From positions 186,001 through 250,000 of the forward strand of contig JADZBD010000016.1 in assembly GCA_020852255.1 (NCBI GenBank): a stretch of 64,000 nt of DNA, in the 5' to 3' direction. The position numbers were made by a program, and so were the translations under genes. The notes under the pieces are model-generated. The model made no database searches. It was not told where the DNA came from and saw only the letters and a program-made list of their open reading frames with translations. This DNA is from Bacteroidia bacterium. GTDB taxonomy: Bacteria; Bacteroidota; Bacteroidia; JADZBD01. This document shows positions 55,075 to 60,595 of this stretch, one piece after another; position 1 is the first letter of the stretch; every line of letters begins with the position of its first letter.

Positions 55075-56793
55075 TTACTTTATTAACAACCTTTGTGCCG
55101 TTTTACCATCCGGGGTATGCACACAGACGCTGTAAACCCCTGTGGGGATGCCTGTTGTGTTGATAAAAAAGTTTCGATCTCCTGCCTTAAAATCCCCTTC
55201 ATAGATCACCTCCACCGTCTTTCCGAGCATATCCTCCAGAGTAACCCGGATCAGCAGATCGCGCCCGGATGACAACGGGATACATGTGATTCCCCTGGAG
55301 GGGTTAGGGTACACCGGATGCATACTGAAATTAAACGAGTACTCTTCAGCACCTGTGGTTCCAAGCACATCGAACTTCCAATAACCCGCAGGAGCAGACA
55401 AAGGACGCACTTGCATCTTTCCTGAAACGGAGGTGCCCTCAACATAATAAAATACGCGGGTTCCGGCCTGCTGCGCTGGAATGCTGCCCGTCCAGTCGGT
55501 ACCATTTACCGTATTCATAGTAACCATCGAATAGGGCTGAAGCGTATCCGTTCTCCAGTAGAGCCGGGCTCCGGCAATTCCTGAACGATGAAGCATTTTT
55601 GCACTCACGAGATAAGGAACGGTAGTGTTGAAGGTATTAGGCAGGGGCTGATGGGAGATTAACAAGGGGTTTGAAGTTCCCACCGAATGTGTGATACAAT
55701 GCAACGCGCCGCTGGCAGGAATTGTGGTATTACAGTTAATTCCAACAATTCGGTAACCCGGTAATGACTCCCTCCAGATACGCAGAGCTGTGGTATCATA
55801 CTGCTGATAATAGGTAGGAACCAAAACCGTTTTGTTCACAAATACCGCATTGGTATATGTCAGGTAATCGCCGCCCTGGTGCGGCCACGTTCCGTTTTGT
55901 TCAGGAGGCATTGGCATCCGGATCACTTTGTACGGAGTTCCGAAAACAGAATTAAAATTCGAAAGAACATATTGCAGGTTGGCCTCGATCTGAGGGCCGT
56001 CGGCAATGTTGGAAGGATACTGTCCCACCAGCAACGTTTCCTCGTCCAGCAATTTCATGTGCATATCAATATGGTGAATGCCGTCATAAGGAAGCACCGT
56101 CATCTTGATGTAACGGCTGATCCCCATGAAATCGTCCATGATCTGATCAATCTGGGATAAAGTGAGGCTTGAATTTTCCTGTACGACCAGGTTAGACGAA
56201 AAACCCGTTCCGAACCCGTCCGACATAAAATTACCTCCTGTGTGCACCAGCAGATGCGGACTCTGTGTCATCGCATACACCGGTATATTGAAATAGGTGG
56301 CAATGTAATTGGGCACTGCATCGTCGAGGGGGCGGGTCGGGCGGTTGTATTTCCAATCCATCAGGATTAAGGAGTCAACGTCGTTGGTATAGCCCCAGTT
56401 CTGACCATAATCCCGGATCCAGACGCTGTTATAAGGCACCTGCAAAAAACCAAGATTAACCAGGGGAACCGTGTTGTTAGTCAGGTAGGTTTTTACCGTA
56501 TTGGAATCTGCGCAAACAATGATGACTTTGCATTCCGTCTGAGCATTGCGCACGATTTCCTTTAGCACCGACTGGTAGCTTGTCCATGTAATGGTCAGGG
56601 CCTGGATCTCTTCCCACTCGGCTCCGGTACGAACCGAAGAAACCGGGGGAGTGTAGATGGGAGCTAAGCTTTGAACCGAAGGGAACTCCCCTTCCCACTT
56701 CTCAGACCCTGTTGTTCTTGTAACCTCCTGGGATACTGATAGTTGAATAGCTCCTAAACAAAACGCAAACAACAAAAGTAAATTTATCTTCAT
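55075..56793 (-). CDS. Secreted peptidylarginine-deiminase-like enzyme with T9SS domain
   Basis: 572 residues with signal peptide MKINLLLLFAFCLGAIQLSV. The agmatine-deiminase fold (about 45-385) carries Asp128 (WIRDYGQNW), Arg151 and Arg154 (YNRPTRPLDD), His241 and Asp243 (HHIDMHMKLL), Asn315 and Cys366 (SGALHCITHS). These match in order and nearly in spacing the catalytic and C-terminal-Arg-binding residues described for Porphyromonas PPAD. An Ig-like region follows (about 395-480), then a complete type A T9SS domain (VYPNPSRGITCI, LEDMLGKTVEV, IPTGVYSV). It should citrullinate peptides or deiminate agmatine outside the cell. Confidence 0.85.
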   Translation of the reverse strand: MKINLLLLFAFCLGAIQLSVSQEVTRTTGSEKWEGEFPSVQSLAPIYTPPVSSVRTGAEWEEIQALTITWTSYQSVLKEIVRNAQTECKVIIVCADSNTVKTYLTNNTVPLVNLGFLQVPYNSVWIRDYGQNWGYTNDVDSLILMDWKYNRPTRPLDDAVPNYIATYFNIPVYAMTQSPHLLVHTGGNFMSDGFGTGFSSNLVVQENSSLTLSQIDQIMDDFMGISRYIKMTVLPYDGIHHIDMHMKLLDEETLLVGQYPSNIADGPQIEANLQYVLSNFNSVFGTPYKVIRMPMPPEQNGTWPHQGGDYLTYTNAVFVNKTVLVPTYYQQYDTTALRIWRESLPGYRIVGINCNTTIPASGALHCITHSVGTSNPLLISHQPLPNTFNTTVPYLVSAKMLHRSGIAGARLYWRTDTLQPYSMVTMNTVNGTDWTGSIPAQQAGTRVFYYVEGTSVSGKMQVRPLSAPAGYWKFDVLGTTGAEEYSFNFSMHPVYPNPSRGITCIPLSSGRDLLIRVTLEDMLGKTVEVIYEGDFKAGDRNFFINTTGIPTGVYSVCVHTPDGKTAQRLLIK

Positions 56794-56947
56794 CCGTTTC
56801 CTTTAATCGTACAATAATAAAAGTTTATAGACAAAAAACCTATTATTATCCGCAATTTTTATTAAATTAGAGCCTTATAATCAATGCAATGGGCCATAAA
56901 AAAGTCTTGGTGGCCATGCAACCTTCCCCCACCCCTGTGTATCTATT

Positions 56948-57511
56948 ATGATAGAAAAGCGCATCCATATGTCTGATGAAGAGCTGGTGAGCGGGTGTCT
57001 TAAAAAGAACCCCTTAGCTCAGAAACAGTTGTGGGAGCGGTTTTCGAGAAAGATGATGGGAGTTTGCCTTCGCTACTCTAACGATAAAGATGATGCGGAG
57101 GATATACTTCAGGTGGGGTTTATAAAGGTCTTTGAAAATATTGAATCATTCAAGGGGAGCGGATCCCTGGAAGGTTGGGTCAGAAGGATCATGGTGAATA
57201 CCGCCCTGAACCATTACCGCCAGAACAAGCAGTCAAGGGAAAGTCTTGACATTGAGGTGGTAGATTACATGGTAGAAGGCGACAACCAGGTTTCAGACCG
57301 GCTGGATGCGAAAGAACTGATGAGGATGATACAGAAGCTTCCTCCGGGTTTTCGGTCAGTTTTCAACCTCTTCGCGATCGAAGGATATTCTCACCGAGAG
57401 ATCGCGGAAATGCTGGAGATTTCAGAGGGAACTTCGAAATCACAGTATGCCAGAGCAAGGATGTATCTCCAGCGAATGATTCTGAAAGAAGAAAAAAGCA
57501 TAGAATATTAA
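56948..57511 (+). CDS. ECF-type RNA polymerase sigma factor
   Basis: 187 residues. Region 2 (about 15-85) has DKDDAEDILQVGFIKVFENI and LEGWVRRIMVNTALNHYR. Region 4 (about 115-175) has LPPGFRSVFNLFAIEGYSHR and EIAEMLEISEGTSKSQYARA. An in-frame second ATG at 56969 is an alternative start. It lies 48 bp before a membrane protein with an anti-sigma-like N-terminus, the usual sigma/anti-sigma order. It should direct transcription of an envelope regulon. The 154-bp region to the divergent deiminase gene is AT-rich with no clear TAnnTTTG. Confidence 0.93.
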   Translation: MIEKRIHMSDEELVSGCLKKNPLAQKQLWERFSRKMMGVCLRYSNDKDDAEDILQVGFIKVFENIESFKGSGSLEGWVRRIMVNTALNHYRQNKQSRESLDIEVVDYMVEGDNQVSDRLDAKELMRMIQKLPPGFRSVFNLFAIEGYSHREIAEMLEISEGTSKSQYARARMYLQRMILKEEKSIEY

Positions 57512-57559
57512 TCAGGGATATCGTTCTTATTTGTTCAATTAAAGTAAAACAACAGTATC

Positions 57560-58663
57560 GTGAAACAGACAGACAACATCGAAAAGCTTTTCAGGGATTC
57601 TTTGGAGAATCTCGAAGCTGACGCGAATCCGCGTGTCTGGGATAACATCCAGAGCCACCTCTCTTCAGGGTCCGGATCGAATGCCACATCTTCCGGCATT
57701 CTGGGTAGCCTGATGTCGAAAGTAATTACTGGCGTGGTGGGAACCGCCGCAGTTATTACAGCCGTAATTATGCTCACGAACACGGGTGAAAACAATGGCA
57801 ACCCGCAGCCTGTGACTGTTAGCAATCAGCACGAAATTCCGGTAAAGAAGGACGTACCAAACTCTCCTTCTGATCACAGCACAACGAACCATTCGGTTAA
57901 TGCGAATACCCCTGTGCTGAATTCAAACGATCATTCCTCCAATTCGGACATAAATACCGGCACAGAATCACAGCCTGATGTGCCTACGCCCGAGAAGATT
58001 TCTTTAACGAATGATCCAACTACCGAACATTCTCTGCATGTGAATTCCGTTACACCTCCGAAGGATAATACCTCTCCGAAGCCGGAATTACCCGAAAACC
58101 CTGCACCCGACAAACTGCCTGAGCTGCCCTTGTTTAAAATGGGTATTGAATACAACAATCAGGGGTTTGCCCCTGCAGTGTTCACTTTCTCTAACAAGGG
58201 AACAGGCGAGGTAATTTCCTGGGATTTCGGAGATAACTCAGAGGGCGTTACAGATCCTAACCCCAGTCATCCGTATGAGCAACCGGGAGAATACCTGGTG
58301 ACCATGACTGTACGTGATGCAAACGGCAACACACACCAGCAGACCAAAACGATCAAGGTTAAAAAAGATCCCAATGCAGGTGAGCCGGTCATTCCCAACA
58401 GCTTCACTCCGAACGGAGACGGCATTAATGACGAATTCCGCATCACAGACAACGTGAATATCTTCAGTTTCAGCCTGGTGATTCAGGATAAAAACGGCAA
58501 AACGATATCACAGTGGTCCGGATTCGAGGGTTACTGGGACGGTCGCAACCTGAAAGGTGAAATTTGCCCTCCGGGAACCTATATTTATGTTCTAAAATAT
58601 GAGGATAAATTCGGCGAGAAGCGGCAGAAGGTCGGAACTATCACCATCCCTAATCAACGATAA
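57560..58663 (+). CDS. Putative anti-sigma factor with periplasmic PKD and CHU_C (T9SS type B) domains
   Basis: 367 residues from GTG 57560. The N-terminus is cytoplasmic and has no signal peptide: IEKLFRDSLENLEADANPRV and WDNIQSHL resemble short Bacteroidota anti-sigma regions. One transmembrane segment is at about 51-72. A Ser/Asn/Pro-rich linker (75-190) leads to a PKD domain (192-268; WDFGD at 221-225) and a gliding-type C-terminal domain (279-367; PNSFTPNGDGINDEF, GYWDGRNLKGE, YIYVLKY). Being membrane-anchored, it cannot be an ordinary T9SS cargo. It is placed directly after the sigma gene and before a large CHU_C protein. Confidence 0.8.
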   Translation: MKQTDNIEKLFRDSLENLEADANPRVWDNIQSHLSSGSGSNATSSGILGSLMSKVITGVVGTAAVITAVIMLTNTGENNGNPQPVTVSNQHEIPVKKDVPNSPSDHSTTNHSVNANTPVLNSNDHSSNSDINTGTESQPDVPTPEKISLTNDPTTEHSLHVNSVTPPKDNTSPKPELPENPAPDKLPELPLFKMGIEYNNQGFAPAVFTFSNKGTGEVISWDFGDNSEGVTDPNPSHPYEQPGEYLVTMTVRDANGNTHQQTKTIKVKKDPNAGEPVIPNSFTPNGDGINDEFRITDNVNIFSFSLVIQDKNGKTISQWSGFEGYWDGRNLKGEICPPGTYIYVLKYEDKFGEKRQKVGTITIPNQR

Positions 58664-58699
58664 AGAAAAAAAGGCTCTGAAATGGGCCTTTTTTTCTTT
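58662..58699 (+). terminator. Intrinsic terminator after the anti-sigma gene
   Basis: A-rich arm AAAGAAAAAAAGGCTC, loop TGAAAT, then GGGCCTTTTTTTCTTT, a nearly perfect long stem whose 3' arm supplies the T run. It overlaps the stop codon and separates sigma/anti-sigma from the next gene. Confidence 0.75.
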
Positions 58700-58756
58700 C
58701 ATATTTCCCCTGATTCTTATTATCTTGCAACGCCTTATTTTATAAATAAGCCCAGT

Positions 58757-60595
58757 ATGAAAAAAGCGCTACAATTACTCTTACTCACCGGAACATTCGT
58801 TCTTCCGGTTTCCGTTTTTGCCCAGAACGACAGTTGTTGTGCCAACGCCGGCTTTGAGCGGACCAACACAAGCTCCCAATCCATTTTTTCACCCTGGCAG
58901 GGTTGTACCGGCAGCGGAAGCACCGTTCAGCCATGGGCTTGTACCTTCCCAGGATTGGCCAATATCGGAACCACATGGCCTGCAGACTCCGGAGTGAATC
59001 TTCCCACGGCCACGGGCTCATTTGTGTTTCAAACCGGAAACGGAATCGATCCGAACATTGGCGGAAATAATTGTATGACTGTAGTTGCTCCCGGTGGTGG
59101 ATCCGTATCCGTACGATTGGGCAACTCCAGCGTGAGTAATAAGGCAGCAAGGATGATGTACCAGATCAACACGGTCGACTCCTGTAACGCGGGGTTCACC
59201 TACTCATACGCTGTGGTGTTACAAGATCCGAGTCATACTCCTCAGGAACAGCCTCGCTTTGATATCAAAGTGACAGATATTAACGGAAACATCCTTGGCG
59301 GACCCTGCGGAACCTATTCCGTATATGCCGGATCAGATCCTAATTTTCAAACCTTCGGAGGCGTAAAATACCTTTGCTGGGTAACGGTGGGCATTGACCT
59401 TCTACCCTATATCGGAACCACGGTACGAATTGAATACGCCACCATGGACTGTACCCAGGGCGGCCATTATGGTTATGCTTACATTGACTGCGGCTGCTCC
59501 CCTTTGATGGGTACCGCACTTTTCTGTCCCAACTCCAACGGACCGATCGTGCTTATTGCTCCATCCGGATATGCCAGCTACCAGTGGAACGATCCTTTTG
59601 GTAATCCCATCCCAGGTCCTGGCGGAACCAACGATACCTGTATCTATACCCTTCCCGCCCAGATCGGAGATCAGTTCGTTGTGGGCATGGTTTCCGCAGC
59701 CGGATGTACCACCAACCTTACTGTGACCTTAGTACCGACAATTATCCAGGCAACAACCACCTGGACCAATGCCATTTGCTATGGCGGTATAGGAATCGTT
59801 AACACCACCCCTTCGGGAGGAACCCCGATTCCAACGTGGAATGTTAGTTACACAGAAATCGTCACAGGACAGCAATTGGGTGGAGGAAGCTGGAATACCG
59901 GCACCTGGACCGATACACTCTACGCCGGAACCTACGTTGTAACATTCCAGGATAGCATTGGATGTGAACACAAAGACACCATCACGATTACACAGCCCCC
60001 CTCTCCGCCTGATACGTTGCCGCAAACCATGTACTTCTGCGAGGGTGACTCAATTGGTTATTTTATGTATCAGGTGGGATCCGGACAAAATGGTCCCTTC
60101 CAATGGTTTAATTATCCCTCAGGAACTCCTGCCACACCACTTATGCCGACCAACCAGGTATGGCTGGTACCCAATCCTACAATGGGTAGCACTTACTGGT
60201 TCACCTGGTACGACAATAACGGATGTAAACGTCGCTCGGTGGTTTCTACCGGCTTTCAGGCACCTAATCCGCTCTATGGACCATCGGATACAGTTGTAAA
60301 TATCTTCACACCGAACGGAGATAATATGAATGAAACGTTCCGTCCGTATTTCTCTCTGTACTGGACCAAAGAAGACATCGAATATTACGCCAAGGAATAC
60401 AATCTGAAGATCTACAGCCGCTGGGGTAACCTCATTTTCGAAACGGACGACTATATGACTGCCTGGGATGGAAAGAAAGGCAGCGCGAAAGTCAATGAAG
60501 GAGTGTATTACTGGGTTGCCACCTATAAGAACCGTTGCGCACCGGAGGATGAACCTCCGATTGAAAAAGCGGGATATGTGCACCTGATGAAATAA
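58757..60595 (+). CDS. Large secreted protein with T9SS type B (CHU_C) sorting domain
   Basis: 612 residues from ATG 58757 with signal peptide MKKALQLLLLTGTFVLPVSV to AQ; the upstream open frame reads through the terminator and is not used. The body is Cys-rich and beta-rich with a jelly-roll-like first domain (about 30-260), an Ig-like segment (SGYASYQWNDPFGNPIPGPG) and an SprB-like repeat (GTPIPTWNVSYTEI, DSIGCEHKDTITI). The end (NIFTPNGDNMNETFRPYF, YSRWGNLIFETDDYMTAWDG, VYYWVATYKN) is the gliding-motility type B domain. It is a likely surface adhesin and possible target of the adjacent sigma system. Confidence 0.87.
   Translation: MKKALQLLLLTGTFVLPVSVFAQNDSCCANAGFERTNTSSQSIFSPWQGCTGSGSTVQPWACTFPGLANIGTTWPADSGVNLPTATGSFVFQTGNGIDPNIGGNNCMTVVAPGGGSVSVRLGNSSVSNKAARMMYQINTVDSCNAGFTYSYAVVLQDPSHTPQEQPRFDIKVTDINGNILGGPCGTYSVYAGSDPNFQTFGGVKYLCWVTVGIDLLPYIGTTVRIEYATMDCTQGGHYGYAYIDCGCSPLMGTALFCPNSNGPIVLIAPSGYASYQWNDPFGNPIPGPGGTNDTCIYTLPAQIGDQFVVGMVSAAGCTTNLTVTLVPTIIQATTTWTNAICYGGIGIVNTTPSGGTPIPTWNVSYTEIVTGQQLGGGSWNTGTWTDTLYAGTYVVTFQDSIGCEHKDTITITQPPSPPDTLPQTMYFCEGDSIGYFMYQVGSGQNGPFQWFNYPSGTPATPLMPTNQVWLVPNPTMGSTYWFTWYDNNGCKRRSVVSTGFQAPNPLYGPSDTVVNIFTPNGDNMNETFRPYFSLYWTKEDIEYYAKEYNLKIYSRWGNLIFETDDYMTAWDGKKGSAKVNEGVYYWVATYKNRCAPEDEPPIEKAGYVHLMK

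Follow-up and report, generated by a model that had tools for sequence, protein, structure and literature searches.

A 64,000-nt stretch from Bacteroidia bacterium (assembly GCA_020852255.1, contig JADZBD010000016.1, positions 186,001-250,000 of the forward strand; hereafter the window, with its genome labelled G000) was analyzed around two adjacent genes, coding for an extracytoplasmic function (ECF) sigma factor and for a membrane-tethered, anti-sigma-like protein that ended in a CHU_C domain resembling the type B sorting signal of the type IX secretion system (T9SS). The two products were evaluated as a candidate sigma/anti-sigma pair with predicted targets among T9SS cargo genes. The locus displayed the following features (window coordinates):

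56918..56944, plus strand: sigma-operon promoter GCAACC-N16-TATCT, the sole exact match in the window, conserved across homologous loci.
56948..57511, plus strand: ECF sigma factor gene (56969 being the likelier start), from Pfam regions r2 and r4_2, homologue alignment, and distance to the promoter.
57560..58663, plus strand: membrane anti-sigma-like protein with PKD and CHU_C domains, from Pfam, family profiles, and AlphaFold2.
57575..57661, plus strand: conserved cytoplasmic tail (residues 6-34), presumed sigma-binding part, with the highest conservation, two helices, and invariant W27.
57722..57778, plus strand: membrane helix (residues 55-73), from hydropathy, found in all homologues.
57779..58138, plus strand: disordered hydrophilic linker, from a predicted local distance difference test (pLDDT) score <50 and family lengths.
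58139..58366, plus strand: PKD domain (Pfam), present in 38/39 members.
58391..58648, plus strand: CHU_C (T9SS type B-like) domain, 56.5 bits, present in 39/39 members.
58487..58498, plus strand: hairpin DKNG (residues 310-313) replacing the RWG hairpin of cargo, from alignment of CHU_C domains.
58664..58697, plus strand: Rho-independent terminator after the sigma/membrane-protein pair, a 14-bp hairpin with a U tract (folding: -18.6 kcal/mol, z -4.5).
58757..60595, plus strand: neighbouring secreted CHU_C cargo protein with a Sec signal and CHU_C at about 60293-60535, synteny kept in genome G001.

The sigma gene product matched Pfam Sigma70_r2 (60.5 bits) and Sigma70_r4_2 (58.3 bits) as well as TIGR02937 (96 bits), and it contained sigma-70 regions 2 and 4 without region 3 (Pfam/NCBIfam), the composition of an ECF factor; its true start was probably the ATG at 56969, because homologues began MTDEE and the promoter -10 element ended at 56944. 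The membrane protein had 367 residues and a GTG start, and it was composed of (i) a polar tail modelled by AlphaFold2 as helices 5-16 and 24-35 (modest confidence); (ii) one hydrophobic helix; (iii) a linker varying from 74 to 188 residues across the family (median 128), with pLDDT <50 over residues 37-164 of the window protein; and (iv) PKD and CHU_C domains modelled mostly at pLDDT >90 (PKD_4 at residues 210-267, 52.4 bits; CHU_C at residues 278-363 against a cut-off of 27 bits, with TIGR04131 at 46.4 bits, also above cut-off). Pfam, hydropathy, and AlphaFold2 thus bore out an earlier note on this DNA, which had described an ECF sigma gene followed by a signal-less protein of exactly this layout. 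An N-terminal region followed by one membrane helix fits the arrangement of membrane-bound anti-sigmas, the cytoplasmic topology being predicted from sequence and model. The tail matched no curated anti-sigma domain in Pfam or NCBIfam, and the protein was therefore filed as anti-sigma-like, not in a named class; searches of PDB by sequence and by fold returned generic Ig-like matches only, PorU among them, and a search of the own genome with the first 73 residues alone gave no convincing paralogue.

Because it carries CHU_C as cargo does, the membrane protein might instead be a T9SS substrate of the ordinary kind, its signal peptide being unusual or having escaped detection, with no regulatory role, an objection that the earlier note had raised against itself. 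The cleavable N-terminal Sec signal of T9SS type B substrates was absent here, and in all homologues the hydrophobic helix lay behind the conserved polar tail, beginning at residue 55 in the window protein; with the sigma gene adjacent and the RWG hairpin lacking in all 39 members (see below), this explanation appears highly improbable.

In total, 395 genomes of the class were searched, first in an initial search and then with an improved profile; matches spanning the tail to CHU_C were obtained in 38 genomes, and five further genomes (G021, G373, G024, G102, and G135) matched the profile partly and had their tails read directly. The fusion was found in at least 11 families (f1, f5, f16, f19, f20, f21, f23, f24, f34, f52, and f62), and loci with flanks were fetched from nine of these 11 (n = 42, including the window). 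An ECF gene lay immediately 5' of the fusion, often with a 4-nt overlap, in 39 of the 42 fetched loci, a recurrence well beyond what chance would give, although some of these 39 were close relatives of one another; where the first search had matched the whole protein, the sigma gene stood directly upstream in 20/20 cases. No sigma/fusion pair was present at L118, L125, and L132, which had matched over PKD-CHU_C only, and a scan of genome contigs returned mostly PKD matches. SprA was detected in 25/25 fusion genomes tested, the co-occurrence of such pairs with T9SS genes having been proposed in the earlier note as a check. Per-column conservation decreased from the tail (2.75 bits) through CHU_C (2.30), PKD (2.16), and the helix (2.07) to the linker (1.24), and CHU_C was the sole extracytoplasmic domain common to all members.

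Conservation of an element 5' of an ECF gene usually points to autoregulation. GCAAC plus YRTC stood 5' of the sigma gene in 34/39 loci, with identical spacing in all 34, compared to a mean of 0.2 loci and a maximum of 4 in shuffled sequences; the family consensus was GCAACC-N16-YRTCT, and the window copy had GCAACC at 56918 and TATCT ending at 56944. From this conservation, we infer that the sigma operon is autoregulated. The conserved operon, the tail as its most conserved part, and the autoregulatory-type promoter together make the membrane protein very probably the regulator of the sigma factor, as the anti-sigma-like role suggested earlier would have it, and the two can be regarded with high confidence as a sigma/anti-sigma pair. 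RseA and CnrY are examples of single-pass membrane anti-sigmas. ECF factors paired with such anti-sigmas (class I type, PMC7406223) resembled the present pair in gene order, short cytoplasmic N-terminus, and autoregulatory-type promoter, but here the tail had no curated anti-sigma match, and the presumed sensor was a T9SS signal-like domain.

This CHU_C head was altered in a uniform manner. The RWG hairpin was found in 0/39 sigma-linked CHU_C domains versus 57/88 other CHU_C domains (Fisher p 9e-14, without correction for relatedness), and the corresponding columns of aligned cargo domains contained R in 94% and W in 86%; the window protein had D310-K-N-G in this place. A CHU_C tree of few aligned columns indicated that some of the 88 comparison domains were duplicate readings of sigma-linked ones, and the contrast is thus understated. 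Motifs PNGD, ND, WDG, GxYxY, and KG..L were retained in the sigma-linked domains. In F. johnsoniae, five conserved type B motifs, RWG perhaps among them, are each required for export (PMC12618676). Compared to T9SS type B substrates (TIGR04131/CHU_C; PMC12618676), the membrane protein shared the CHU_C fold and most hallmark residues, but it had neither the cleavable Sec signal nor the RWG hairpin and was tethered to the membrane. The head thus looks like a specialised relative of the secretion signal, not a standard copy.

Related tails were also found with other heads. In Aequorivita echinoideorum (L086:4402-6560), an ECF gene was followed by a related tail plus helix fused to an outer-membrane beta-barrel (OMP_b-brl_2); its tail was 49% identical over residues 1-35, and one chain may span both membranes. 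Genomes of family f16 (L098:5228-6555; also L096, L099, and L100) harbored, beside the CHU_C pair, a second ECF sigma gene and a tail-helix protein of about 240-260 residues, which contained no CHU_C and had no Pfam match; L041/L098 likewise showed such a second pair. The barrel fusion and these CHU_C-free second pairs indicate that the tail-helix module recurs with different heads.

The barrel fusion of L086, likewise placed after an ECF gene, would fit a different function of the head: T9SS parts would carry or anchor the altered domain at the outer membrane or surface, and the resulting trans-envelope tether would sense an outside ligand, contact, or force, with the state of T9SS not being the signal. 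With 74-188 residues, the linkers could reach across a periplasm. Against this function, PKD was the only potential ligand-binding domain present, and CHU_C was the only domain in every member. Type B domains do anchor proteins at the surface through PorP/SprF-like shuttles (PMC9143113, PMC12618676), but with RWG missing, normal hand-over to the shuttle is doubtful. Such a surface sensor is a serious rival to a sensor of T9SS capacity, though on balance an unlikely one.

The regulon was predicted by scanning for exact TGCAACC-N15..17-YRTCT in the own genome plus eight, and then in 14 other fusion genomes; 122 distinct sites were read in context, 72 from the first set and 50/104 from the second. 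The N16 spacing accounted for 91/122 sites, and 82/122 were intergenic. The gene downstream was readable for 67 of the intergenic sites, of which 28 preceded a T9SS C-terminal-domain (CTD) protein and 13 preceded a sigma gene; further targets were Sec-signal proteins whose ends fell outside the fetched stretch. Curated models assigned 17 of the 28 cargo targets to type A (7) or type B (10, including L207, which scored above the Pfam cut-off and just below that of TIGR04131), and the other 11 calls were made with profiles built here from the checked 17. Two controls were compared: (i) 12 T9SS-rich genomes without detected fusion (as judged by a search scoring five candidates per genome), in which 30/60 sites were read, nine being intergenic and none preceding a CTD protein, with flat spacing; and (ii) a scrambled motif, which gave 18 sites, one intergenic and none before a CTD protein. 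Fisher p values against the two controls were 0.001 and 0.013 for CTD targets and 0.0002 and 6e-7 for intergenic placement; control sites had shorter flanks, which weakens the first contrast since the terminal CTD of a long gene might go unnoticed in the controls, but the intergenic and spacing contrasts hold regardless of flank length.

The own genome (3.28 Mb) bore a heavy type B load, with 50 CHU_C domains passing the cut-off of Pfam and 53 found at E <=0.001. A matrix trained on sigma promoters of other genomes was applied to it: scores >=12 were reached by 8/47 type B cargo promoters, 1/46 other window genes, and 2/47 antisense sequences (p 0.016 versus window genes), and, without two preselected genes and at a cut-off of 6, by 11/45 cargo promoters versus 3/46 window genes (p 0.018). 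The other short CHU_C genes of this genome (L012-L018) coded for ordinary secreted proteins, and no sigma partner was seen beside them; L012 adjoined a PorP/SprF-like gene.

It is likely that the sigma factor controls a T9SS cargo regulon, and the connection to T9SS is stronger than the earlier note had it, the predicted targets being T9SS cargo genes. Several observations pull the other way: (i) over all own-genome cargo promoters, the rank test did not reach significance (p 0.12) and the difference was confined to the high-scoring tail, so that at most a subset of own-genome cargo would be affected; (ii) the sigma promoter was lacking or had diverged in f24 and in some members of f62; (iii) some fusion genomes (G261 and G190) showed no enrichment of motif copies relative to the reversed control; and (iv) the motif also preceded a different ECF gene in G158 (L330, G158:C5:4866-4893), which suggests a cascade or a second sigma of like specificity, and thus more than one sigma may read the motif.

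Other carriers of the promoter were recorded. A secreted MORN-repeat protein of about 185 residues had it in four genomes (L141 at G000:C16:170496, L176, L180, and L186, with Pfam confirmation for L186), and the own-genome copy (L141) was divergent from the short CHU_C gene and PorP/SprF-like gene of L012. In G016, two paralogous secreted proteins of 150-160 residues (L151 and L172, the latter without Pfam match) both carried the promoter.

All three genes of the locus lay where the earlier note had placed them. The third started at the ATG at 58757, not at 58682; its product was a Sec-signal CHU_C secreted protein, as the earlier note had proposed. It is probably a transcription unit of its own, separate from the sigma/membrane-protein pair, because the terminator hairpin and U tract stand between. 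All three genes occurred in the same order in the neighbouring genome G001 (same locus as L067, Bacteroidia bacterium SW_6). The divergent neighbour (window 55075-56793, minus strand) coded for an enzyme that resembled peptidyl-arginine/agmatine deiminases (PAD_porph) and bore a type A T9SS tail.

The nature of the targets bears on what the head would report. The mechanism favored in the earlier note, in which the head monitors whether the translocon is occupied or cargo is backing up, and a backlog frees the sigma factor as a relief response, is compatible with the same anatomy, since a periplasmic T9SS signal-like domain could compete with cargo for translocon or shuttle. It fits the output poorly: sigma-driven cargo would add to the backlog. 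The motif was absent upstream of sprA in 19/20 genomes, and the targets read included no recognised T9SS component (machinery genes other than sprA were not scanned individually). The motif near sprA in G261 lay inside an upstream open reading frame and was not counted as a target, and the upstream scan of these 20 genomes left a sigma factor driving the translocon gene sprA unsupported. A backlog response is on these grounds improbable. Scarcely better placed is generic envelope regulation, in which CHU_C and PKD would be a spacer or protease-access domain, the signal would be unrelated to T9SS, and the cargo output would be incidental. PKD and CHU_C are common Ig-like folds, and loss of RWG could be decay of export function, but CHU_C was kept in 39/39 members with most hallmark residues and was conserved above PKD, helix, and linker, and this reading would not explain why a T9SS-type sensor should go together with a T9SS cargo regulon.

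CHU_C can be argued to be the sensor because it is the only extracytoplasmic domain in all 39 members. The missing RWG, on the other hand, could mean that the head no longer binds T9SS, and whether it senses the state of T9SS appears evenly balanced. The best explanation overall, held with no more confidence than doubt, is an autoregulated sigma factor and a tethered anti-sigma with an altered T9SS head, together coupling cargo synthesis to secretion capacity. The anti-sigma would hold the sigma factor through its short two-helix cytoplasmic tail, and the long flexible linker would give the periplasmic PKD-CHU_C head access to the T9SS machinery in the outer membrane. When a translocon or shuttle with spare capacity engages the head, the protein would be pulled or would change its conformation, possibly with subsequent proteolysis, and the sigma factor would be freed. 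As the promoter matches suggest, the sigma factor would then transcribe, besides the operon that encodes it, a group of T9SS cargo genes that includes both type A and type B. Cargo would then be made when it can be exported. Licensing by capacity is favored over backlog, because with cargo as output a stable circuit needs the sigma factor to be on when capacity is free.

Flagellar type III export offers a parallel in FlgM/FliA, where the sigma factor transcribes late cargo of the export system and the anti-sigma bears that system's own export signal. The logic here would be similar, transcription of the signal's own cargo class by the sigma factor being predicted from promoter matches; FlgM is soluble and leaves the cell, whereas the present protein is unrelated in sequence and tethered by its membrane helix, which makes its full export unlikely. 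That the tethered, signal-mimicking anti-sigma reads translocon or shuttle availability and licenses cargo, as a type IX counterpart of FlgM/FliA across many families, is put forward tentatively, as a possibility somewhat short of an even one.

In P. gingivalis, PorXY-SigP with the CTD protein PorA places T9SS machinery genes under ECF control (PMC7712824, PMC4800418). That system and the present pair shared an ECF sigma factor tied to type IX secretion and a CTD-bearing protein upstream, but the output of the former is T9SS component genes through a two-component system, with PorA being a surface protein, while the pair here had the CTD-like domain fused to the presumed anti-sigma and cargo as predicted output. 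The F. psychrophilum SM6 ECF promoter set (PMC9723704), likened by description and not by homology, similarly had an ECF-type promoter with a CGT -10 element and targeted T9SS genes plus an ECF/anti-sigma pair; unlike here, its targets included the machinery genes gldN and porU. RsgI proteins of Clostridium thermocellum are membrane anti-sigmas with an outside sensor domain that control secreted-protein genes and are freed by proteolysis (PMC12203970); the arrangement proposed here is alike in governing secreted-protein genes from an outside sensor, but RsgI has carbohydrate-sensing heads in a Gram-positive cell, with no secretion signal as sensor. The searched literature (most subscription journals and bioRxiv lay outside its coverage) contained no anti-sigma with a T9SS signal domain and no such cargo regulon.

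A signal-like domain from which RWG is missing throughout also offers a natural way to tell signal residues used for recognition from those used for hand-over to a shuttle. For tests in a culturable host, the system provides a conserved sigma factor together with its probable anti-sigma, a promoter sequence, and a list of targets. How Bacteroidota match the output of very large T9SS adhesins and enzymes to outer-membrane translocon capacity had no account in the searched literature; if the present explanation is true, the cell may match cargo production to secretion capacity.

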